DNA of 64,000 nt, taken from the NCBI RefSeq assembly GCF_900105925.1, contig NZ_LT629791.1, positions 4,620,001 through 4,684,000 on the forward strand, given 5' to 3'. The notes below the pieces were generated by a model. It ran no database searches, was not told the origin of the DNA, and saw nothing but the letters and a program-made list of their open reading frames with translations. The position numbers and the translations under genes were made by a program. Source of the DNA: Jiangella alkaliphila. Its GTDB lineage: Bacteria; Actinomycetota; Actinomycetes; Jiangellales; Jiangellaceae. Positions within the stretch are counted from its first letter, which is position 1. The number at the start of each line of letters is the position of its first letter. This document shows positions 773-12,734 of the stretch, piece after piece.

Positions 773-1882
773 TCACTCGGCCGGCATCACCCGCACCTCG
801 GCCGCGTCGACGTCGCCCACCGGCAGCGCGAACTCCAGCAGCTCCCGCCCCTCCGCCTCGACGTCCGCGACCTCCGAGGCCGACAGGGGCCGGTACGGCG
901 TGACCGTCAGCACGGCGTCCTCGAGCCGCCACCAGCCGGCCACCTCGCCGTCGACCAGCAAGGCGTGCGGCACGACGCCGTTGCGGCGGTTCATGCGCTT
1001 GCGGTTGACGTCGTCGATGACGCGGGTGCGGTCGGCGTGGGAGCGCAGCACGTTGTCGAAGTCGGGCAGGAAGCGGACCGGCGCCGGAACGTCGGCGTCA
1101 GGGCGGGGCGCGTCGGGGAGGTCGAACAGCTCGCGGCCGGTCTCGTCGCGGAACACCCGCAGCGACGGGCGCAGCTCGTCGACGACGGCGCGCAGCCGGG
1201 TCAGGCCGCACCACGTCTGTAGGTCGGCGACCGACGCCGGGCCGAAGGCGCCCAGATAGCGCCGCACGAACATGTCCGGCGACGGCGCCGCCAGCGGCCG
1301 GTCGAGCCAGCGCTCGACCGTGGTCAGCCGGGTCTGCCCGCTCTGCCCCCACACGGCCCGCGGCGGTACCTGGACCAGCACCAGCAGGGCCCGCGCCACG
1401 TGCGCCAGGTGCGCGGCGCCCACGGACGGCCACGACGGCGCGAGCAGCGCGCCCAGCTCGGCCATGGTGCGCGGCTCGGCGTCGACCAGCTCGCGCGCGG
1501 CCGCGGCCACCGCCTCGACGTCGACGCCCGCGAGCGGCTTGGCGTGCTCGGCGTTGGTGCGAAGGTCGGCGACGTAGAGCGGCTGCACCCACGGCCGCAG
1601 GGTCAACGCGTCGGGCACGGACAGAAGATGGATGGTGCCGCGCTGGGCCGCGATGCGCACCACCGTGCGGTCGAGCAGCAGCCGGGCCAGCAGCTCGGGC
1701 CGGAACCCGCGCAGCCGCGACCACAGCTGGTAGTACGGCGAGAACGGCTGCTGCGCCTGCAGGCCGCCCAGGTGCTCGACGGTGGCGAGCACGGAGCGGT
1801 CGGCACGATCGGCGCGGTCGAGCAGCAGCTGCCGGGCCAGGGTGGCGCGGTTCAGCTGGCGGCGGGTCAGCACGTCGGACAT
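773..1882 (-). CDS. winged-helix DNA-binding domain protein (DUF1006/HTH_42 family)
   Basis: Protein of 369 aa starting MSDVLTRRQLNRATLARQ. It has the pattern of the actinobacterial winged-helix family once called DUF1006: an N-terminal LGGLQAQ segment, then VRIAAQRGTIHLL near residues 90-105, an AYLG-like segment (RRYLGAFGPAS), and a C-terminal RFLPDFDNVL plus VDGEVAGWWR. Family members include DNA glycosylases of the AlkX/AlkZ type and uncharacterised proteins, so DNA binding or lesion processing is likely but not proven. The open frame continues far upstream, but the ATG at 1882 is the family's normal start. It is divergent from the amidohydrolase with 60 bp between the starts. Confidence 0.8.
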   Translation of the reverse strand: MSDVLTRRQLNRATLARQLLLDRADRADRSVLATVEHLGGLQAQQPFSPYYQLWSRLRGFRPELLARLLLDRTVVRIAAQRGTIHLLSVPDALTLRPWVQPLYVADLRTNAEHAKPLAGVDVEAVAAAARELVDAEPRTMAELGALLAPSWPSVGAAHLAHVARALLVLVQVPPRAVWGQSGQTRLTTVERWLDRPLAAPSPDMFVRRYLGAFGPASVADLQTWCGLTRLRAVVDELRPSLRVFRDETGRELFDLPDAPRPDADVPAPVRFLPDFDNVLRSHADRTRVIDDVNRKRMNRRNGVVPHALLVDGEVAGWWRLEDAVLTVTPYRPLSASEVADVEAEGRELLEFALPVGDVDAAEVRVMPAE

Positions 1883-1942
1883 GGCCCTAGCCTCTCGCGA
1901 CCCACCGACAACGTCGCACCGGTCGAAGTGCAGAATCGCCGG

Positions 1943-3532
1943 GTGACGACGACGCTCTACCGCAACGGACGCATCCACAGCCCCGCCGACCCGTTCGCGA
2001 CCGCGATGCTGGTGGTCGACGACACGGTCGCCTGGGTGGGCCCCGAGGGCGCCGCGAGAACCCATCTGGACGCGGCCGACGAGGTCGTCGACCTGGAGGA
2101 CGCGCTGGTCGCGCCCGCGTTCGTCGACGCGCACGTGCACCTGACGGAGACCGGGCTGGCCCGCGACGGCCTCGACCTGGCGGGGACGGCGAGCCGGGCG
2201 GCGGTGCTGGACCTGGTGGCGAAGCGGGCGAAGGAGCGCCCCGGCGAGGCGATCCTCGGCTTCGGCTGGGAGGAGGACGGCTGGCCCGACGGCGGCGCGC
2301 CGACCCCGGACGAGCTGGACCGCGCCGCCGGCCACACCGCCGTCTACCTGGCCCGGCGCGACGTCCACACCGCCGCGGTGTCCGGCACGCTGCTGGCCGC
2401 CGACCGCTCCATCGCCCGCGCCGACGGCTACGACGACGGCCTGGTCCGCCGCGACGCCCACCACCGGGCCCGCCAGGCGGCCCGGTCCGCCGTCCCGGCG
2501 AGGAGGATGGCCGAGCTGCGCGAGGAGGCGCTGCGGCATGCCGCGTCGCTGGGCATCGGCGCGGTGCACGAGATCGGCGCGCCGCAGATCAGCGACTCCG
2601 CCGACTTCACCGCGGTCCTCGCGCTCGGCGCCGACCCGGAGCTGCCGGACGTCATCGGTTACTGGGGCGCTCGCGGCGCCGCGCAGGCCCAGGCCCTGGG
2701 TGCGGCTGGCGCGGCCGGCGACCTCAACGTCGACGGCTCGATCGGCTCGCGCAGCGCCCGGCTGTCCTCGCCGTACACCGACGCGCCGGACGAGCGCGGC
2801 CGGCTCTACCTCGACGCCGGCGCCGCCGCCGAGCACGTCGTCGCCTGCACCCGGGCCGGCATCCAGGCCGGCTTCCACTGCATCGGCGACGAGGCGGTCC
2901 GGGTCGCCGTCGAGGCCGTCGCGGCCGCCGCCGAGGTCTGCGGGCTGGCCGCCGTCGTCGGGTCGCGGCACCGGCTGGAGCACGTCGAGATGATCGACGA
3001 TCTCCTGATCGCGTCGATGGCCCGGCTCGGCGTCGCGGCCAGCGTGCAGCCGGCCTTCGACGCGCTGTGGGGCGGCCCGGACGGCCTGTACGTCGAGCGG
3101 CTGGGCCCGGACCGCGGCATCGCGCTGAACCCGTTCGCCGCCATGGCCCGGGCCGGCGTGCTGCTCGCCTTCGGGTCCGACTCGCCGGTGACGCCGCTGG
3201 CCGGGTGGGAGACGGTGCGCGCGGCGTCGCAGCACCGGACGGCGGCCCAGCGGATCAGCGCGCGGGCGGCGTTCTCGGCGGCGACGCGGGGCGGCTGGCG
3301 GGCCGCGCGGGTCGAGGACGCCGGCGTGCTGGCGCCCGGCATGCGCGCGTCGTTCGCCGTGTGGGAGGTGCCGTACGAGCTGGTCGTCCAGGCGCCGGAC
3401 GCGCGGGTCGCGGCCTGGTCGACCGACCCGCGGGCGGGCGTGCCGGGGCTGCCGGACCTGTCGCCGGACGTGCCGCTGCCGCCCTGCCTGCGGACGGTCG
3501 CGCGCGGCCGGACGGTGTACGCGGCCGGGTGA
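1943..3532 (+). CDS. amidohydrolase family 3 protein (YtcJ-like)
   Basis: Metal-dependent hydrolase of 529 aa in the amidohydrolase superfamily, YtcJ-like branch. The GTG at 1943 starts a short beta-sandwich strand (VTTTLYRNGRIHSP). It is followed by FVDAHVHL with metal ligands H64 and H66, a central FHCIGDEAV histidine strand, RHRLEHVEM, and the C-terminal catalytic FGSDSPVTP. A hexamer CAGAAT lies about 6 nt before the GTG, so a leaderless transcript is possible. The substrate is unknown; family members act on amides, lactams or similar compounds. Its stop lies 88 bp before coxM, on the same strand, but a promoter sits in that gap. Confidence 0.85.
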   Translation: MTTTLYRNGRIHSPADPFATAMLVVDDTVAWVGPEGAARTHLDAADEVVDLEDALVAPAFVDAHVHLTETGLARDGLDLAGTASRAAVLDLVAKRAKERPGEAILGFGWEEDGWPDGGAPTPDELDRAAGHTAVYLARRDVHTAAVSGTLLAADRSIARADGYDDGLVRRDAHHRARQAARSAVPARRMAELREEALRHAASLGIGAVHEIGAPQISDSADFTAVLALGADPELPDVIGYWGARGAAQAQALGAAGAAGDLNVDGSIGSRSARLSSPYTDAPDERGRLYLDAGAAAEHVVACTRAGIQAGFHCIGDEAVRVAVEAVAAAAEVCGLAAVVGSRHRLEHVEMIDDLLIASMARLGVAASVQPAFDALWGGPDGLYVERLGPDRGIALNPFAAMARAGVLLAFGSDSPVTPLAGWETVRAASQHRTAAQRISARAAFSAATRGGWRAARVEDAGVLAPGMRASFAVWEVPYELVVQAPDARVAAWSTDPRAGVPGLPDLSPDVPLPPCLRTVARGRTVYAAG

Positions 3533-3620: not shown

Positions 3621-4502
3621 ATGCAGGTACCCGCGCCGTTCGAGTACGAGCGAGCCACCAGCGTCGACCACGCGATCGGCCTGCTGGAGCGTCTGGGCAG
3701 CAGCGCCCGGCTGGTGGCGGGCGGGCACAGCCTGCTGCCGATGATGAAGCTGCGGCTGGCCAATTTCGAATACCTCATCGACATCAACGGCCTGCGTGAC
3801 GAGCTCGGCTACCTCCGGATCGGCTCCGGCGAGATCCGGATCGGCGCGCTGACGCGGCACGGCGAGCTGCTCGAGTCCGACGAGCTGGCGGCGGCGTTCC
3901 CGATCTTCCGCGACGCCGAGCGGGTCATCGCCGACCCGGTCGTGCGCAACTGGGGGACGCTCGGCGGGTCGCTGTGCCAGGCCGACCCGTCGGAGGACCT
4001 GTCGGCGGTCTGCACGACGCTCGACGCGCGCTGCGTCATCCGTGGCCCGCGCGGCGAGCGGATCGTGCCGATGACGGAGTTCCACCACGGGCCGTACGAG
4101 ACCGCCGTCGGCGACGGCGAGATCCTCACCGAGATCCGGTTCCCGGTCCGCCCGCGCGGCGGCAGCGCGTTCGAGAAGGTCGAGCGGCGGGCCGGCGACT
4201 GGGCGGTCGTGTCCGCCGGGGCCGCCGTCTGGCTGGACGAGAACGGGCGCATCACCGACGCGCGGGTCGGCCTGGCCGCCGTCGGGCCCAACACGACGGC
4301 GCTGCCCGCGGTCGCCGCCGCGCTGCGCGGCCGCGAGCCGTCCGAGCGGCTGTACGAAGCGGCGGCCAGCATCGCCGCCCGTGGCTGCCGTCCGGACACC
4401 GACATGCGCGGCAGCGTCGAGTACAAGCGGCACCTCGCCGGCGAGCTGACGAAGCGGGCGCTGCGCCGGTCGGTCGAGCGCGCGCTGGAGAGGAGGAGTT
4501 GA
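3621..4502 (+). CDS. coxM: aerobic carbon monoxide dehydrogenase, medium (FAD) subunit
   Basis: FAD-binding subunit, 293 aa, that passes electrons from the iron-sulfur subunit towards the respiratory chain. The two flavin-contact motifs of the CoxM/XdhB fold are present: AGGHSLLPMMKLRLA near residue 33 and TLGGSLCQADPSED near residue 114. The length matches CoxM (about 290). The ATG follows a strong purine-rich ribosome binding site. It is the first gene of the operon; the medium-small-large order is the order of form I CO dehydrogenases, while form II operons run small-large-medium. Confidence 0.93.
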   Translation: MQVPAPFEYERATSVDHAIGLLERLGSSARLVAGGHSLLPMMKLRLANFEYLIDINGLRDELGYLRIGSGEIRIGALTRHGELLESDELAAAFPIFRDAERVIADPVVRNWGTLGGSLCQADPSEDLSAVCTTLDARCVIRGPRGERIVPMTEFHHGPYETAVGDGEILTEIRFPVRPRGGSAFEKVERRAGDWAVVSAGAAVWLDENGRITDARVGLAAVGPNTTALPAVAAALRGREPSERLYEAAASIAARGCRPDTDMRGSVEYKRHLAGELTKRALRRSVERALERRS

Positions 4503-4503
4503 C

Positions 4504-4977
4504 ATGCAGGTCTCGTTGACGGTGAACGGCGAGGAGGTCGTCCGCGAGATCGAGGCGCGGCTGCTGCTGGTGCACTTCCTGCGCGACGTGCTCGGGCTGA
4601 CGGGCACGCACTGGGGCTGCGACACCAGCAACTGCGGCACCTGCGTCGTCTGGCTGGACGGCCGGCCGGTGAAGTCGTGCACCGTGCTGACGGCGATGGC
4701 CGGCGGCCACGAGGTCCGCACCGTCGAGGACCTGGCCCGCAACGGCGAGCTCGACCCCGTCCAGCGCGGCTTCATCGAGTGCCACGGCCTGCAGTGCGGC
4801 TTCTGCACCCCCGGCATGATGATGACGGCACGCGCCCTGCTCGACGCGAACCCGGACCCGACGCCGGACGAGATCCGCACCGCCATCAGCGGGCAGATCT
4901 GCCGCTGCACCGGCTACGCCACCATCGTCCGCTCGGTCCGCTGGGCCGCCGCGTACGAGGCCGGAGGTGCACCGTGA
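4504..4977 (+). CDS. coxS: aerobic carbon monoxide dehydrogenase, small (2Fe-2S) subunit
   Basis: Protein of 157 aa with two [2Fe-2S] domains. The N-terminal plant-ferredoxin-type cluster uses the cysteines in GCDTSNCGTC and the following KSC. The C-terminal helical domain carries CGFC and CRC (GQICRCTGY). The start ATG is one base after the coxM stop and its ribosome binding site (GGAGG) lies inside the end of coxM, so translation is probably coupled. It shuttles electrons between the molybdenum-copper site of CoxL and the FAD of CoxM. Confidence 0.95.
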   Translation: MQVSLTVNGEEVVREIEARLLLVHFLRDVLGLTGTHWGCDTSNCGTCVVWLDGRPVKSCTVLTAMAGGHEVRTVEDLARNGELDPVQRGFIECHGLQCGFCTPGMMMTARALLDANPDPTPDEIRTAISGQICRCTGYATIVRSVRWAAAYEAGGAP

Positions 4978-7364
4978 CCACCGTCGGCCGCAAGCCGGCC
5001 GGTTTCGAGGACAACGACCAGCACCCGGTCGGCCACGGCCGCATGCTGCGCAAGGAGGACCCGCGGTTCGTCCGCGGCCGCGGACGCTACGTCGACGACG
5101 TCCAGCTGCCGGGCATGCTGCACCTGGCCATCCTGAGGGCGCCGGTCGCACACGCGAAGCTGGTCAGCATCGACACCACCGCGGCCGAGGCGCACCCGAA
5201 GGTGAAGGCCGTCGTCACCGGCGCGACGCTGGAGACGCTGAGCCTGGCCTGGATGCCGACGCTGTCCAACGACGTCCAGGCCGTCCTGGTCACGGACAAG
5301 GTGCGGTTCCAGGGACAGGAGGTCGCGTTCGTCGTCGCCGAGGACCGCTACGCCGCCCGCGACGCGCTGGAGCTGATCGACGTCGAGTACGACGTCCTCG
5401 ATCCGGTCGTCGACGTCCGCCGCGCCCTCGCGAAGGGCGCCCCGGTCATCCGCGACGACCTCGACGGCAAGACCGACAACCACTGCTTCGACTGGGAGAC
5501 CGGCGACGCCGCGGCGACGGAGGCGGTGTTCGCGAAGGCCGACGTCGTCGTCAGCCAGGACATCGTGTACCCGCGGGTGCACCCGGCGCCGATGGAGACC
5601 TGCGGCGCGGTGGCCGACTTCGACCCGGTCGAGGGCCGCCTGACGCTGTGGTCGACGACTCAGGCGCCGCACGCGCACCGGACGCTGTACGCGCTCGTGG
5701 CCGGGCTGCCGGAGCACAAGATCCGGGTCATCGCGCCGGACATCGGCGGCGGGTTCGGCAACAAGGTCCCGATCTACCCCGGCTACGTGTGCGCGGTCGT
5801 CGGCTCGATCGTCACCGGCAAGCCGGTCAAGTGGATGGAGGACCGGTCGGAGAACCTGGTCAGCACCGGGTTCGCCCGCGACTACGTCATGCGCGGCGAG
5901 ATCGCGGCCACGCGCGACGGGCGCATCCTCGGCCTGCGCACCCACGTGCTGGCCGACCACGGCGCGTTCAACGGCACCGCCGCGCCGGTGAAATACCCGG
6001 CCGGGTTCTTCGGCGTGTTCACCGGCAGCTACGACCTCGAGGCCGCCTACTGCCACATGACCGCCGTCTACACGAACAAGGCGCCCGGCGGCGTCGCGTA
6101 CGCCTGCTCGTTCCGCATCACCGAGGCCGTCTACCTGGTCGAGCGGATCGTCGACTGCCTCGCCGCCGAGCTGGCGATGGACCCGGTCGAGCTGCGGCTG
6201 AAGAACTTCATCCGGCCCGAGCAGTTCCCGTACACGACGAAGACCGGCTGGGTGTACGACTCCGGCGACTACGAGCCGACCATGCGCAAGGCGATGGAGC
6301 TGGCCGGCTACGAGGACCTGCGCCGCGAGCAGGCGGAGAAGCGAGCTCGCGGCGAGCTGATGGGCATCGGCGTCTCGTTCTTCACCGAGGCCGTCGGCGC
6401 CGGGCCGCGCAAGCACATGGACATCCTCGGCCTGGGCATGGCCGACGGCTGCGAGCTGCGGGTGCACCCGACGGGGAAGGCGGTGGTCCGGCTCTCGGTG
6501 CAGTCGCAGGGGCAGGGGCACGAGACGACGTTCGCGCAGATCGTCGGCGAGGAGCTGGGCATTCCGCCGGCCGACGTCGACGTCGTCCACGGCGACACCG
6601 ACAACACACCGTTCGGCCTGGGCACGTACGGCAGCCGCTCCACGCCGGTCTCGGGCGCCGCGGCCGCGCTGGTGGCCCGGAAGGTCCGCGACAAGGCCCG
6701 CATCGTCGCGTCGGGCATGCTCGAGGTGTCCGCCGACGACCTCGTCTGGGAGAAGGGCTCCTTCCACGTCGCCGGCGACCCCAGCGCGGCCGTGACGATC
6801 CAGGACATCGCCATGCGGGCGCACGGCGGCGGCGACCTTCCCGACGGGTACGAGGGCGCGCTGGAGGCGCAGATCACCTACAACCCGCCGAACCTCACCT
6901 ACCCGCACGGCGCCTACATCTGCGTCGTCGACGTCGACCCGGGGACCGCGCAGGTGAAGGTGCGCCGGTTCGTCGCCGTCGACGACTGCGGCACCCGGAT
7001 CAACCCGATGATCATCGAGGGGCAGATCCACGGCGGGCTCACCGACGGCGTCGGCATGGCGCTGATGGAGATCATCGCGTTCGACGAGGACGGCAACTGC
7101 CTCGGCGGGTCGCTGATGGACTACCTGCTCCCGACCGCGATGGAGGTGCCCGACTGGGAGACCGGCTTCACCGTGACGCCGTCGCCGCACCACCCGATCG
7201 GCGCGAAGGGCGTGGGGGAGTCGGCGACGGTCGGCTCGCCGCCGGCCATCGTCAACGCCGTCGTCGACGCGCTCGCGCCGTTCGGTGTCCGGCACGCCGA
7301 CATGCCGCTGACGCCGTCGCGGGTGTGGGACGCCATGCGCGGCCAGGCGCGGCCGCCGATCTGA
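4974..7364 (+). CDS. coxL: aerobic carbon monoxide dehydrogenase, large (Mo/Cu) subunit, form I
   Basis: Catalytic subunit, 796 aa, oxidising CO to CO2 at a molybdenum-copper site. The active-site loop reads VAYACSFRITE, which fits the form I signature AYxCSFR. Cys378 corresponds to the copper-binding cysteine (Cys388 of Oligotropha CoxL); form II enzymes have AYRGAGR instead. The C-terminal GVGESATVGSPPA carries the catalytic glutamate, E749. A GGGFGNK loop for molybdopterin binding is also present. The GTG start overlaps the coxS stop by 4 nt. Motif and gene order together make a genuine CO dehydrogenase more likely than a general xanthine-oxidase relative. Confidence 0.95.
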   Translation: MTTVGRKPAGFEDNDQHPVGHGRMLRKEDPRFVRGRGRYVDDVQLPGMLHLAILRAPVAHAKLVSIDTTAAEAHPKVKAVVTGATLETLSLAWMPTLSNDVQAVLVTDKVRFQGQEVAFVVAEDRYAARDALELIDVEYDVLDPVVDVRRALAKGAPVIRDDLDGKTDNHCFDWETGDAAATEAVFAKADVVVSQDIVYPRVHPAPMETCGAVADFDPVEGRLTLWSTTQAPHAHRTLYALVAGLPEHKIRVIAPDIGGGFGNKVPIYPGYVCAVVGSIVTGKPVKWMEDRSENLVSTGFARDYVMRGEIAATRDGRILGLRTHVLADHGAFNGTAAPVKYPAGFFGVFTGSYDLEAAYCHMTAVYTNKAPGGVAYACSFRITEAVYLVERIVDCLAAELAMDPVELRLKNFIRPEQFPYTTKTGWVYDSGDYEPTMRKAMELAGYEDLRREQAEKRARGELMGIGVSFFTEAVGAGPRKHMDILGLGMADGCELRVHPTGKAVVRLSVQSQGQGHETTFAQIVGEELGIPPADVDVVHGDTDNTPFGLGTYGSRSTPVSGAAAALVARKVRDKARIVASGMLEVSADDLVWEKGSFHVAGDPSAAVTIQDIAMRAHGGGDLPDGYEGALEAQITYNPPNLTYPHGAYICVVDVDPGTAQVKVRRFVAVDDCGTRINPMIIEGQIHGGLTDGVGMALMEIIAFDEDGNCLGGSLMDYLLPTAMEVPDWETGFTVTPSPHHPIGAKGVGESATVGSPPAIVNAVVDALAPFGVRHADMPLTPSRVWDAMRGQARPPI

Positions 7365-7376
7365 GCCGGGGCAGCC

Positions 7377-8267
7377 GTGACACACACGATCGAGGACCGG
7401 GCCGGCGAGCTGCTCGCCGGCCGGGTCCCGTTCGTCCGCGCCACCGTGGTGCGGGCCCAGGTGCCGGCGTCGGCGCGGGCCGGCGACGACGCGATCATCC
7501 TGGCCGACGGCACCATCGAGGGGTTCGTCGGCGGCCAGTGCACCGAGAGCTCGGTGCGGGCGGCCGCGCTGGGCGCCATGCGCGACGGCGAGAGCGTGCT
7601 GCTGCGGGTGCTGCCGGAGGACGCGGGGCCGTTCCCGGACACGCCCGGCGCCCGCGTCGTCGTCAACCCGTGTCTGTCCGGGGGAGCCATGGAGATCTTC
7701 CTGCAGCCGCGGCTGCCGCGGCCGCTGGTGCACGTCGTGGGCCACTCGCCGATCGCGGCGGCGCTGGCCGAACTGGGCGAGCCGCTGGGGTTCGAGGTGG
7801 TCCGGGCCGGCACCGGGACACAGCCGCCGGCGACGCCGTCCGCGCTGGTCATCGCCACCCACGGCGGCGACGAACCGGCCGTCATCAGGGCCGCGCTGGA
7901 CGCCGGCGTCGGGTGGATCGGGCTGGTCGCGAGCCCGCGGCGAGGTGCCGGCGTGCTGGCGGAGCTGACGCTGACCGAGGCCGAGCGCGCCCGCGTCAGC
8001 ACGCCGGCCGGGCTGGACATCGGCGCGCGGACGGCGGCTGAGATCGCGCTGTCGATCCTCGCCGAGATCGTCCAGGAGGTGCGGGCCGGGCGGCTGGCCG
8101 TCCCGGACCGCGAGCCGGCGCGGGCCCCGCGGCTGGCCGTCGACCCGGTCTGCGGCATGACCGTCGCCGTCGGGCCGGACACCCCGCACCTGGTCCTCGA
8201 CGGCGCCGACGTGTGGTTCTGCGGGCCGGGCTGCCGCGACCGGTACGCGACGACGGCGGGGAGGTAG
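7377..8267 (+). CDS. XdhC/CoxF-like maturation protein with a C-terminal YHS domain
   Basis: Protein of 296 aa in two parts. Residues 1-230 are an XdhC-type protein: an N-terminal XdhC/CoxI domain with DGTIEGFVGGQCTESSV, and a Rossmann half with VHVVGHSPIAAAL and WIGLVASPRR. XdhC proteins bind or deliver sulfurated molybdenum cofactor. Residues 255-296 form a YHS domain (DPVCGM with C259, then FCGPGC with C282 and C286), a small metal-binding module known from copper-handling proteins. In Oligotropha the XdhC-like CoxF has been proposed to act in copper insertion into the Mo-S-Cu site; the fused YHS domain here would suit that role. The GTG start is 12 nt after coxL. Confidence 0.85.
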   Translation: MTHTIEDRAGELLAGRVPFVRATVVRAQVPASARAGDDAIILADGTIEGFVGGQCTESSVRAAALGAMRDGESVLLRVLPEDAGPFPDTPGARVVVNPCLSGGAMEIFLQPRLPRPLVHVVGHSPIAAALAELGEPLGFEVVRAGTGTQPPATPSALVIATHGGDEPAVIRAALDAGVGWIGLVASPRRGAGVLAELTLTEAERARVSTPAGLDIGARTAAEIALSILAEIVQEVRAGRLAVPDREPARAPRLAVDPVCGMTVAVGPDTPHLVLDGADVWFCGPGCRDRYATTAGR

Positions 8268-9151: not shown

Positions 9152-9811
9152 ATGCAGATCGACAACGAGTTCACCGTGGGCGTGCCCGTCGACCGCGCCT
9201 GGGAGGTGCTCACCGACCTCGAGGGCATCGCGCCGTGCATGCCGGGCGCGCAGCTCACCGGCCGTGACGGCGAGGTCTACCAAGGCCGGGTGCGGGTCCG
9301 GGTCGGGCCGGTCGTGTCCGAGTACGCCGGCACCGCCACGTTCGTCGAGAAGGACGACGCCGCCCACCGCGCCGTCATCAGCGCCTCCGGCCGCGACTCT
9401 CGCGGCGCGGGCAACGCATCGGCCCAGATCGTCGCCCAGCTCCGGCCCGACGGCGACCGGACCGTCGTCACCGTCGACACCGACCTGCGGATCAGCGGGA
9501 AGATCGCCCAGCTCGGCCGCGGCATGATCAAGGAGGTGTCGACGAAGCTGCTCGGTCAGTTCGTCGAGTGCCTGGAGGGCAAGCTGGGCGGCGCCGCGGC
9601 GGCGGCCGAGCCCGAGCCCGTCGTCGCGCCCGCAGCCGCGCCTGAGCCCGAGCCGGCCGCCGCGGCTGCGGCGCCCGTCCCGCCCGCCGTCGAACCCGAG
9701 CCGCTGGACATCATGGGCGTGGCCGGCGGATCGATCGCGCGGCGGATCGTCCCGCTGGTGGTCACCCTGATCGTGCTGGTCGGCGTGACGATGTACCTGG
9801 TCACCCGCTGA
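9152..9811 (+). CDS. coxG: CO dehydrogenase accessory protein CoxG, membrane-anchored SRPBCC protein
   Basis: Protein of 219 aa. Residues 1-145 are a CoxG/SRPBCC hydrophobic-pocket fold (FTVGVPVDRAWEVLTDLEGIAPCMPGA at the N-terminus is typical). Residues 148-190 are an Ala/Glu/Pro linker. Residues 195-217 form one transmembrane helix (IVPLVVTLIVLVGVTMYLV) with a short basic tail. CoxG is thought to hold CO dehydrogenase at the inner face of the membrane, and the tail anchor suits this. A GGGAGG ribosome binding site precedes the ATG. Confidence 0.92.
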   Translation: MQIDNEFTVGVPVDRAWEVLTDLEGIAPCMPGAQLTGRDGEVYQGRVRVRVGPVVSEYAGTATFVEKDDAAHRAVISASGRDSRGAGNASAQIVAQLRPDGDRTVVTVDTDLRISGKIAQLGRGMIKEVSTKLLGQFVECLEGKLGGAAAAAEPEPVVAPAAAPEPEPAAAAAAPVPPAVEPEPLDIMGVAGGSIARRIVPLVVTLIVLVGVTMYLVTR

Positions 9812-9814
9812 CCC

Positions 9815-11005
9815 ATGACGCTGCTGCGTGGTGCGGACCGGGCGGCGTTCGCGACGGCGTTCGGCGTCAGGCTGCGCGAGCACGGGGTCGCGGCCGGGCA
9901 GACCGCCGTCGAGGACTTCGTGCGGGCACTGGCCGTCTGTGCGCCGGACACGCGGTCGCGGCTCTACTGGACCGCCCGCACGACGCTGGTGCGCCGCCAC
10001 GGCGAGCTGGCGCCGTTCGACGCGGTGTTCCGGGCGGTGTTCGACGACGCCGAGCTGGACCTGGGGGAGCGCGGCCAGGACGGCGACCGCCTCCCGCCGG
10101 CGGACGGCGACGTGCACCGGCCGGGCGGCGCCGCGGCACCCGGCGGGGGCGTGGGCGGGCACCGCGGGCTGCCCTGGGCGACGCTGCCGCGGCTGACCGT
10201 CGCCGCCGACGGCGAGCCGGGCGCCGTCGCCGTCCCGCAGCGGCTGCCGAGCGCCCTGGCCGGGCTGCCGGACGCGCCGTTCGCCGCGCTCGACGCCGCG
10301 GAGATGGCCCTGCTCGGAGCCTGGCTGCGGGCCGCCCTGCCGAACTGGCCGACGCGGCGGACCCGGCGCCAGGTGGCCGACCCCGCCGGGCACCGGGTCG
10401 CCGTCCGGCCCACCATCGCGCGGGCCAGGCGGACCGGCTGGGAGGCCATCACCCTGGTCCGCACCCGGCCGGCCCGGCGGCCGCGGCGGGTCGTGCTGCT
10501 CTGCGACGTCAGCCGGTCCATGCAGCCGCAGGCGACGGCGTACCTGCACCTCATGCGGGCCCTGGCGACCGGCGCCGATGCGGAGGCGTTCGCGTTCGCG
10601 ACCCGGCTGACCCGCCTGACCAGCGTGCTCGCGCACCGGTCGCCCGAGGAGGCGGTCGCCCGCGCGACGGCGCAGGTCACCGACCGGTTCGGCGGCACCC
10701 GCATCGCCGCCAGCCTGCGCGCGCTGCTGGCGTCGCACCACGCCGACAGCACCCGCGGCGCCGTCGTCGTCATCGCCTCCGACGGCTGGGACGCCGACCC
10801 GCCCGCGGAGCTGGCGGCGGCGCTGGCCCGGCTGCGGCGACGTGCGCACCGGGTGGTCTGGCTGAACCCGCGGGCCGGCGCGCCTGACTACGTCCCGTCG
10901 GTCGCGAGCATGGCCGCCGCCCTCCCGTACTGCGATGACCTCCTGCCGGCCGCGACGTTCCGCTCGCTGGCCGACGCGATCGCCGCCATCGCCCGCCACC
11001 GCTGA
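9815..11005 (+). CDS. coxE: VWA-domain CO dehydrogenase maturation protein CoxE
   Basis: Protein of 396 aa with a C-terminal von Willebrand A-like domain (CoxE family). The metal-ion-dependent adhesion motif is DVSRSM, with D231, S233 and S235. An N-terminal helical region and an acidic, glycine-rich linker near residues 85-115 come first. CoxE is the expected partner of the MoxR ATPase CoxD in assembling the active site. The start is 4 nt after the coxG stop, so the two are probably co-translated. It is the last gene before the long hairpin at 11050. Confidence 0.92.
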   Translation: MTLLRGADRAAFATAFGVRLREHGVAAGQTAVEDFVRALAVCAPDTRSRLYWTARTTLVRRHGELAPFDAVFRAVFDDAELDLGERGQDGDRLPPADGDVHRPGGAAAPGGGVGGHRGLPWATLPRLTVAADGEPGAVAVPQRLPSALAGLPDAPFAALDAAEMALLGAWLRAALPNWPTRRTRRQVADPAGHRVAVRPTIARARRTGWEAITLVRTRPARRPRRVVLLCDVSRSMQPQATAYLHLMRALATGADAEAFAFATRLTRLTSVLAHRSPEEAVARATAQVTDRFGGTRIAASLRALLASHHADSTRGAVVVIASDGWDADPPAELAAALARLRRRAHRVVWLNPRAGAPDYVPSVASMAAALPYCDDLLPAATFRSLADAIAAIARHR

Positions 11006-11142: not shown

Positions 11143-12102
11143 CTAGCTCCAGAGTGTCACGTGGATGGACGGGCGGAAGCGGCCGACGTGGACGCCGGAG
11201 CCCTTGAGCATCGCCTGGGTGGCCCGCGGCGTCGTGACGAAGCGGACCAGCTCGGCCGCGGGCGTGGCGGGGCCGTCGTCGGCCAGGGTGAGGGCGGTCC
11301 AGACGCCGTCGCCGCGCAGGGACGGGCCGTTGAGGCGGACCAGGCGGCCGGTGCCGACGTCGCGGCCGACGGCGTACGAGACCGCCAGCGCGACGCCGTG
11401 GCCGCGCTGCGCCTCCTCCAGCGCGGCCGCGTGGCTCTGGAAGATCTGCTGCCGCTGCTCGGCCACGCCCAGCCGCCGCAGCAGCCCCGGGACCGGGCCG
11501 GTGTCGGCCGCCGCCGACGGGCCGAGCAGCCAGACCTCGTCGCGCAGCTGGGCCGCGCTGGGCGACGACACCGCGGCCAGCGGGTGCTGCGGCCCGACGA
11601 CGACGATCAGCTGGTACTGCAGGAACCGGGTGCAGCGCAGGGTGTCGTCGACGGTGCTGGGCTGCGGGCCGATCGCGACGTCGACGGCGCGGGTGTGCAG
11701 CAGCGAGCCGAACGCGCCCGGGTGGTGCACGCTGAGCTCGACGTTGAGGTCGTCGGCGCGCCCGGCGAACAGCTCGATCAGCCCGGGCGCGGCGTACTCG
11801 GCGAACAGGCTGGACGCGGCGATGCGCAGCAGCCGGCGGCCGTTGCCGGCCTGGCTGACCTCGAGGATCGTCCGGTTCTGCAGGCCCACCAGCTCGGCCG
11901 CCCGGCTGGCCAGCCGCAGGCCGCCGGGCGAGAACGCCAGGCCCGACGCGGTGCGGTGGAACAGCTGGTCGCCCAGCTCGCGGCGCAGCTTGCCGATGTG
12001 CAGCGACACGGCCGCCTCGGTGATGGACAGCTCGCCGGCAGCCTGCTTGACCGAGCCCAGCCGGACGACCGCGAGGTAGGCCCGCAGCTGCGTCGGCGTC
12101 AC
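11143..12102 (-). CDS. LysR-family transcriptional regulator
   Basis: Regulator of 319 aa. Residues 1-60 form the LysR winged helix-turn-helix (TPTQLRAYLAVVRLGSVKQ, then AAGELSITEAAVSLHIGKL and the wing LGDQLFHRT). The rest is a periplasmic-binding-protein-like effector domain. The GTG at 12102 gives the standard LysR N-terminus; the longer open frame would add about 65 unlikely residues. It faces the cox operon tail to tail. Mycobacteria use a LysR protein (CutR) for CO dehydrogenase, so it may control cox, but here it is convergent rather than divergent, so the link is only suggestive. Confidence 0.85.
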   Translation of the reverse strand: MTPTQLRAYLAVVRLGSVKQAAGELSITEAAVSLHIGKLRRELGDQLFHRTASGLAFSPGGLRLASRAAELVGLQNRTILEVSQAGNGRRLLRIAASSLFAEYAAPGLIELFAGRADDLNVELSVHHPGAFGSLLHTRAVDVAIGPQPSTVDDTLRCTRFLQYQLIVVVGPQHPLAAVSSPSAAQLRDEVWLLGPSAAADTGPVPGLLRRLGVAEQRQQIFQSHAAALEEAQRGHGVALAVSYAVGRDVGTGRLVRLNGPSLRGDGVWTALTLADDGPATPAAELVRFVTTPRATQAMLKGSGVHVGRFRPSIHVTLWS

Positions 12103-12734
12103 CCGCTCACCGTATCGCCCGGACGGCTCCTCGCGGCGGTTGCTGATCATGCGTGTGGTATGTCCGTCTCGGCGATCGCGACACGCCGGGCGGAGACAAC
12201 CTTTCTCGATCGACTTCTCCGTATCCAGTCGCCCGTGACCAGCGGCGCAGGGGCGTTTGCGCAGGTCGACCGGCGGCTTGACACCCCGCCGATGCATCCA
12301 GCAAAGTCACGAGGGTCCACCAGCGGACGAAACCGTTCGGGCCGGCGGTCCGGACGGGCGTTGCGAGGAGGGTCGAGGGGCGGTTCCTGTGTCTCACAGG
12401 GGCCGGGCATCCTTCGTGAGCCAGGCCCTCGCTCGCATGACCCGTCTGTACGTCGCCCGCAGCGGCACGGGGTGAGACGAGGTCGGGCCCGGCCCGCCCA
12501 GTAGACAACGGTCCGCGCGCCGCATCCAGCGGCGTCCGCGGCCCGGTCCGAAGGGCGGGGCCGGGCTGCGTCCTTCGTCACAGACGCTGGACCAGCACGG
12601 CAGCACCCCGGGCACTCAGTGCCCGGGGTGCACGTTGTACCGTCACGCGATCGGCAGCACACTTGACGGGGGCCGGTCAACCACCCGAACGGGCCCCACC
12701 GCCAGCCGCTGGACGTCGGACGGAGCAGGACAAC
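12103..12734. other. 632-bp intergenic region with a strong hairpin
   Basis: No convincing gene is seen between the LysR start and lnt. Short open frames on both strands have no ribosome binding site and no recognisable sequence. There is a perfect 13-bp hairpin with a 3-nt loop at 12603-12631 (left arm GCACCCCGGGCAC), typical of a terminator. No gene in the visible sequence needs it, so a small RNA ending there is possible. CCTGTG-TCT-CACAGG near 12385-12400 is a smaller dyad. TTGACG near 12663 may be the lnt -35. Confidence 0.5.

Follow-up and report, generated by a model that had tools for sequence, protein, structure and literature searches.

A C-terminal YHS-type domain on CoxF as a candidate copper-loading module for form I CO dehydrogenase

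The gene at positions 7377-8267 of the window (the whole stretch of 64,000 nucleotides of Jiangella alkaliphila DNA analysed here) encodes an XdhC protein with a C-terminal YHS-type domain and lies in an operon for a Mo/Cu CO dehydrogenase (CODH). The evidence leans slightly towards this protein being CoxF, a factor for the insertion of copper into form I CODH, with the YHS domain serving as its copper-loading module. Mo/Cu CODH is the enzyme with which aerobic bacteria take up CO, atmospheric CO included; for the delivery of copper to its Mo-S-Cu centre, a requirement for coxE and coxF has so far been established in a single species. On CoxF, the 45-residue domain supplies a conserved candidate site for metal, made up of three cysteines and one aspartate, with tail-less relatives as natural controls. 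Since the tail is present on CoxF of many CO-oxidising bacteria, the copper-delivery step becomes directly testable. The gene, its domains and its neighbours are as follows.

3621..4502, + strand: coxM, FAD subunit of CODH
4504..4977, + strand: coxS, [2Fe-2S] subunit
4974..7364, + strand: coxL, form I (AYACSFR) Mo/Cu subunit; the chosen start at 4974 overlaps the coxS stop
7377..8267, + strand: XdhC protein of the CoxF type, 296 aa, GTG start, ending in a YHS-type domain
7413..7607, + strand: XdhC_CoxI domain, residues 13-77, containing C55 (Pfam E 4.6e-15)
7671..7685, + strand: CoxF signature C99-x-S101-x-G103, aligned with the published putative copper motif MCPSHGTM of Oligotropha carboxidovorans CoxF
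7731..8069, + strand: XdhC_C Rossmann domain, residues 119-231 (Pfam E 8.5e-21)
8130..8264, + strand: YHS/TRASH-type domain, residues 252-296, candidate ligands D256, C259, C282 and C286
8271..9131, + strand: coxD, MoxR-type AAA+ ATPase
9152..9811, + strand: coxG
9815..11005, + strand: coxE, VWA_CoxE protein
11143..12297, - strand: LysR-type regulator adjoining the operon, its role inferred

The gene order coxM-coxS-coxL-[XdhC-YHS gene]-coxD-coxG-coxE is operon-like, the XdhC-YHS gene beginning 12 bases from the coxL stop and ending 3 bases before coxD. The coxL product scored 1407 bits against TIGR02416 (cut-off 991) and carries the active-site motif AYACSFR, both of which mark a form I Mo/Cu CODH; together with coxD, coxG and coxE downstream, this bears out the assignment of the operon in the original prediction. 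The XdhC/CoxF-like region described there was likewise recovered, as both XdhC domains exceeded their Pfam cut-offs (XdhC_CoxI 55.7 bits, cut-off 24.3; XdhC_C 75.2 bits, cut-off 29.7) and the protein groups with CoxF of O. carboxidovorans. It contains five cysteines, C55 and C99 in the CoxF core and C259, C282 and C286 in the tail. Elsewhere the same genome encodes another large subunit (G000:C1:3276120-3278420; 672 bits, below the TIGR02416 cut-off) and a second, tail-less XdhC (G000:C1:4278625-4278870).

The identity of the core was analyzed in a tree of XdhC cores, which took in 118 of 241 XdhC rows. The window protein fell on the same side as O. carboxidovorans CoxF, with 24 paralogs opposite (SH-aLRT 99, from a quick method without bootstrap); three tail-less rows, L222_4539, L295 and L296, branched basally within the CoxF side. 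Both C55 and C99 were present in all 150 YHS-bearing CoxF and in 29/29 tail-less ones, the latter including L088, L089 and L105, whose genes run off contig ends; in paralogs, each was found at the aligned position in 7 of 59. The pattern CxSxG occurred in 178 of 179 CoxF as against 0/59 paralogs. At this position Pelzmann et al. described the putative copper motif M107CPSHGTM of O. carboxidovorans CoxF (PMC4240915). Its methionines are not conserved among the CoxF proteins aligned, and the motif, searched as MCPSxG[TSA]M, was detected in none of the 150 YHS-bearing and in 10 of the 29 tail-less proteins. The proposed phytase motif RHGxR was found in 0/150 and 2/29, respectively. Thus, neither of the motifs proposed from O. 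carboxidovorans, for copper or for phytase, is conserved among the CoxF proteins compared here.

The tail holds D256-x2-C259-x22-C282-x3-C286, which fits the YHS/TRASH ligand pattern, D or C-x2-C-x(about 22)-C-x3-C. Alone it scored 14.8 bits (E 0.028) against PF04945, under the gathering score of 30.3; the Pfam scan of the whole window protein returned no PF04945 match, and a PF04945 profile search of the window's own genome gave 0 matches. The tails of relatives align with that of the window protein, and PF04945 was matched at E <= 0.01 in 13 of the 16 proteins aligned full length (best 7.9e-16), the window protein being among the 16 and outside the 13. Residues D256, C259, M261, C282 and C286 were invariant in all 24 sequences of alignment A1. 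On sequence comparison, homology to its relatives makes the tail a divergent YHS-type domain, although its own score would not place it in PF04945. The original prediction had spoken of a clear YHS domain with C259, C282 and C286: the cysteine positions stand and the domain is real by way of its relatives, but with 14.8 bits against 30.3 it is not clear on its own.

Structure prediction with AlphaFold2 gave a mean pLDDT of 93.7 for the tail modelled alone. In the whole protein the block means were 89, 87, 95, 93 and 82 from residue 251 onward, and the linker (residues 241-250) had a mean of 54. When the tail model was compared with the PDB using Foldseek, the top 46 rows were chains of ribosomes or pre-60S particles, with TM scores up to 0.72 and a best E of 0.15 for what is a very short chain. 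Among these rows, 8hku_L24E, 1ffk_R and 9nri_BV are L24e, as identified by a search of solved structures with the tail profile, which itself matched phenol hydroxylase (E 1e-5) and L24e (E 0.013) best. Phenol hydroxylase holds zinc in its YHS-like domain. A fold search with the whole-protein model matched only XdhC and Rossmann domains. TRASH/YHS domains have been compared to the L24e fold, in which the metal site consists of four Cys (PMC4626032).

Across relatives, the ligand motif was kept in 150 of 151 distinct XdhC-YHS genes, the first ligand being Asp in 147 and Asn in 3 and the spacing x22 in 137. For 64 of these genes, which came from a contig scan keyed on the YHS pattern, the motif is there by construction; among those found independently of the scan key it was present in 86 of 87. 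The sole motif-less gene (L033, 9947-11008, on a plasmid of Deinococcus sp. AJ005) has a degenerate YHS tail without the first Cys and lies beside a form I coxL, and its relative in Meiothermus (L221) shows the full ligand motif. Motif-less, decayed tails might escape YHS detection and hence be scored as absent. The 163 YHS-bearing ORFs correspond to about 150 distinct genes owing to duplicates such as L015/L096 (one place also taken as a wider region), L014/L172 and L016/L180 (the last two apparently the same contigs, present in both collections). A chance motif was ruled out by its retention in all but one of the relatives, and an assembly or frame artefact by the identical fusion across many genomes.

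Two CoxF proteins, L057 (G387) 1306-2790 (-) and L202 8956-10149 (+), contain two tandem YHS domains, each with a full ligand set. CC motifs were observed in the linkers of three other XdhC-YHS proteins (L034 9950-11086, SCCGGG; L225 8947-10011, SCCGS and SCCAG; L228 7581-8636, NCCGGG), whose hosts are a haloarchaeon and two Gammaproteobacteria; it is possible that these motifs supply further Cu(I) ligands.

To relate the fusion to the enzyme, its occurrence was scored in 296 Actinomycetota genomes. The fusion was called in 45 genomes, in 42 by a nearly full-length profile match into the tail and in three (G390, G073 and the fragment G498) by inspection of the ORF; TIGR02416 was over its cut-off in 42, and no full-length match scored between 1057 and 785 bits. 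Fusion and form I coxL occurred together in 39 genomes, the fusion only in 6, coxL only in 3 and neither in 248 (Fisher p 1e-38, kinship uncorrected); because the fusion apparently has a single origin, these counts are not independent events. In five of the six fusion-only genomes (G307, G413, G443, G410, G390) part of a form I coxL lies at the end of a contig, the sixth genome being G498. Among the coxL-only genomes, G082 is truly tail-less and G311 and G469 are cut at contig ends. Where fusion genes had no large subunit in their locus, form I coxL over the cut-off was found elsewhere in the genome (G054, G394, G334) or only as fragments (G247); in G534 it lies 3.4 kb from the fusion gene.

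A contig scan blind to neighbours was carried out with the key DPVC[GD]M[TS]V. It returned at least 595 stretches, and the best 80 of 198 relatives were taken as a sample. These 80 loci comprised 69 XdhC-YHS genes and 11 other YHS proteins; of the latter, nine were scanned and five proved to be heavy-metal P-type ATPases. Within this best 80 of 198, 60 of the 69 XdhC-YHS loci had form I coxL, whole or in part, one had only a form II gene and eight had none. The genomes of these other nine loci and of L222 contained form I coxL over the cut-off in 8/10 cases and only fragments in 2/10. That single form II case (L205) was rejected as a form II fusion, its genome (G570) having form I coxL over the cut-off.

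As controls, 40 XdhC loci were picked by hand from weak XdhC profile matches in Actinomycetota genomes, 14 beside large subunits other than form I (AYRGAGR, AFRGAGR, AMRGFGA or others) and 26 with no large subunit in view. A YHS tail was found in 0/40. The profile used detects YHS domains in unrelated proteins at 45-67 bits, so this zero does not reflect blindness to generic YHS. On the basis of these 40 loci, a fusion on XdhC of non-copper enzymes was rejected, and among all loci read the tail was confined to XdhC proteins on the CoxF side of the tree. Among the matches listed, no weak XdhC row extends beyond profile position 260, the CoxF fragment G498 excepted. The original prediction had proposed that the fusions should track form I and not form II coxL, and had named equal frequency beside non-copper enzymes as a case against it; the genome counts agree with the former, and no fusion was seen at any of the 14 non-form-I control loci.

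A second XdhC is often encoded near form I operons (e.g. L074 3906-5060, L075 9840-11093, L085 7723-8931, L102 12917-14257), and those read all lack a YHS tail. Form I coxL itself varies, with SYRCSFR in L040, L041, L225, L281 and L288-L292 (several Pseudomonadota) and AYRCSFM in Caballeronia L035, variants that a strict AYxCSFR search misses.

The roughly 150 distinct XdhC-YHS genes derive from Actinomycetota and from records of some ten other phyla. Judged by record titles, which include many metagenome-assembled genomes whose placements may err, YHS-bearing CoxF occurs in Actinomycetota, Thermomicrobium roseum, other Chloroflexi, Meiothermus, Deinococcus (degenerate), Myxococcaceae, Gemmatimonadota, Acidobacteria, Verrucomicrobiota, Rokuibacteriota, Gammaproteobacteria and on plasmids of Paraburkholderia and Caballeronia, as well as in the archaeal records of Natronorubrum and a Thermoplasmata MAG. 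Twelve of 19 plasmid matches were read, and alignment A4 used 38 of the 80 contig-scan loci. Among 349 Pseudomonadota genomes, 21 had a CoxF-like match at E <= 1e-30; form I coxL was in view in 17, of which 2 had the tail and 15 did not (G908 was left out of the loci read). CoxF on alphaproteobacterial plasmids was tail-less in all six cases read, and tail-less CoxF beside form I coxL was also found in G082, G149, G055, G258 and Nonomuraea L039. Its absence from most Pseudomonadota form I loci and from some Actinomycetota indicates that the tail is not essential; it is probably useful rather than indispensable.

The tree contains 8 changes between tail presence and absence, 3 of them from contig-end rows (L088, L089, L105) that were scored as tail-less. 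With the tree rooted on paralogs, a single early gain, close to the CoxF base, followed by a few losses, the largest in the clade with alphaproteobacterial CoxF, would explain this pattern. The XdhC-YHS fusion is probably one ancient event that has been retained, and an XdhC core with a YHS tail is probably the ancestral form of CoxF.

The link of CoxF to copper comes from O. carboxidovorans, where coxE and coxF mutants produced CODH without any copper, in which Mo was complete and sulfane sulfur stoichiometric (PMC4240915). Treatment of mutant CODH with Cu(I) alone gave 14 % (coxF) or 35 % (coxE) of the fully reconstituted activity, and each mutant also lacked the other's protein (PMC4240915). 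Since the coxF mutant is also without CoxE, copper is tied to the CoxE/CoxF pair and not to CoxF alone. The complete Mo content of CODH from the coxF mutant (PMC4240915) further means that CoxF is not needed for Mo insertion, so that the original suggestion that the fusion would place both metals in one maturation protein is not supported. The only CoxF tested genetically is this O. carboxidovorans homologue, which is tail-less.

A copper function of the tail is suggested by analogy. The adenylyl cyclase of Mycobacterium phlei is specifically switched on by Cu2+ with Mg2+, and its author infers copper binding by D178/C181/C204/C208 of a YHS domain (PMC4626032). The first ligand of the CoxF tail is Asp as in this copper-responsive cyclase, not Cys as in L24e, which favours copper but is no proof. 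By this analogy the YHS tail would bind Cu(I). In the mechanism that we propose, the YHS site D256/C259/C282/C286 would capture cytosolic Cu(I), and the copper would then move to the CoxF core near C55 and C99 (CxSxG). CoxF, together with CoxD (Mo sulfuration) and CoxE, would finally deliver Cu(I) to the sulfurated Mo site of folded apo-CODH at the Cys of AYxCSFR. The simplest account of an Asp and three Cys specific to CoxF may be that they load the copper, the universal C55/C99 core acting as the transfer site. More tentatively, the ancestral CoxF might have been a two-site copper relay, in which the tail loads Cu(I) and the C55/C99 pair inserts it into sulfurated apo-CODH. The O. carboxidovorans lineage would then have lost the tail, so that the loading part was missed, and the phytase/MCPSHGTM model would be inapplicable to most CO oxidisers; we hold this wider proposal to be plausible, if somewhat doubtful.

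The main rival to copper loading, and a live alternative, is that the tail is a structural zinc site, as in L24e or the YHS-like domain of phenol hydroxylase, which stabilises CoxF or a partner contact and leaves copper to the core C55 and C99 alone. The best matches of the tail profile and the L24e-type ribosomal chains at the top of the fold search are in line with it, as are the form I CODH of 15 of 17 Pseudomonadota loci accompanied by tail-less CoxF and the core Cys universal in the CoxF proteins read. It fits less well with the Asp that is the first ligand in 147 of the 150 motif-bearing tails, and with the missing tail at all 40 control XdhC loci, where a stabiliser should be equally useful; on the whole we regard a zinc site as unlikely.

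An appreciably less likely alternative is that the tail is a copper sensor, copper switching on CoxF or its complex with CoxD/CoxE while the sensing ion itself is not handed over. The YHS domain of the M. phlei cyclase is a probable copper switch (PMC4626032), and the tail sits behind the poorly predicted linker, both of which would suit a sensor; yet the CoxF step itself uses copper, which makes a separate sensor unneeded, and the tandem YHS copies in two CoxF proteins would suit carrying over sensing. Least probable of all is that a YHS domain fused once to an early CoxF was inherited with the operon without any role in copper insertion. The tree, with its 8 label changes, is compatible with one origin, but the ligand motif is fixed while the linker and surrounding residues vary widely, and records from many phyla still show the domain despite its being losable.

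CoxF, YHS domains and the separate links of each to copper are already known. No paper found in the open-licence literature describes the XdhC-YHS fusion, its confinement to form I CODH or the lack of it in the model species, and domain databases may list the architecture. The portions available of PMC6794299 and PMC6776052 mention neither coxF nor XdhC, and that of PMC6776052 does not mention YHS.

Compared with known systems, the window protein is closest to CoxF of Oligotropha (Afipia) carboxidovorans OM5, with which it shares the XdhC core, the side of the tree, the form I coxMSL/coxD/coxE/coxG partners and the CxSxG Cys. The OM5 protein differs in that it has 280 aa and no YHS tail, and in its RHGxR and MCPSxG[TSA]M motifs, neither of which occurs in the 150 YHS-bearing CoxF. 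The YHS domain of the M. phlei adenylyl cyclase resembles the tail in being a C-terminal module with D-x2-C-x22-C-x3-C, but it is fused to a Cu2+-activated cyclase, whereas the tail is fused to a maturation protein for a metal cluster (PMC4626032). The motif DPVCGM...FC-x3-C of CoxF tails is also found in the YHS domains of heavy-metal P-type ATPases, but there the domain lies close to the N-terminus of a transporter, whereas CoxF, a maturation protein, carries it at the C-terminus. Finally, XdhC proteins of other molybdenum hydroxylases and CoxI-like paralogs share the two-domain XdhC core with the window protein, but lack both the YHS domain at the 40 control loci and CxSxG in all 59 paralogs.
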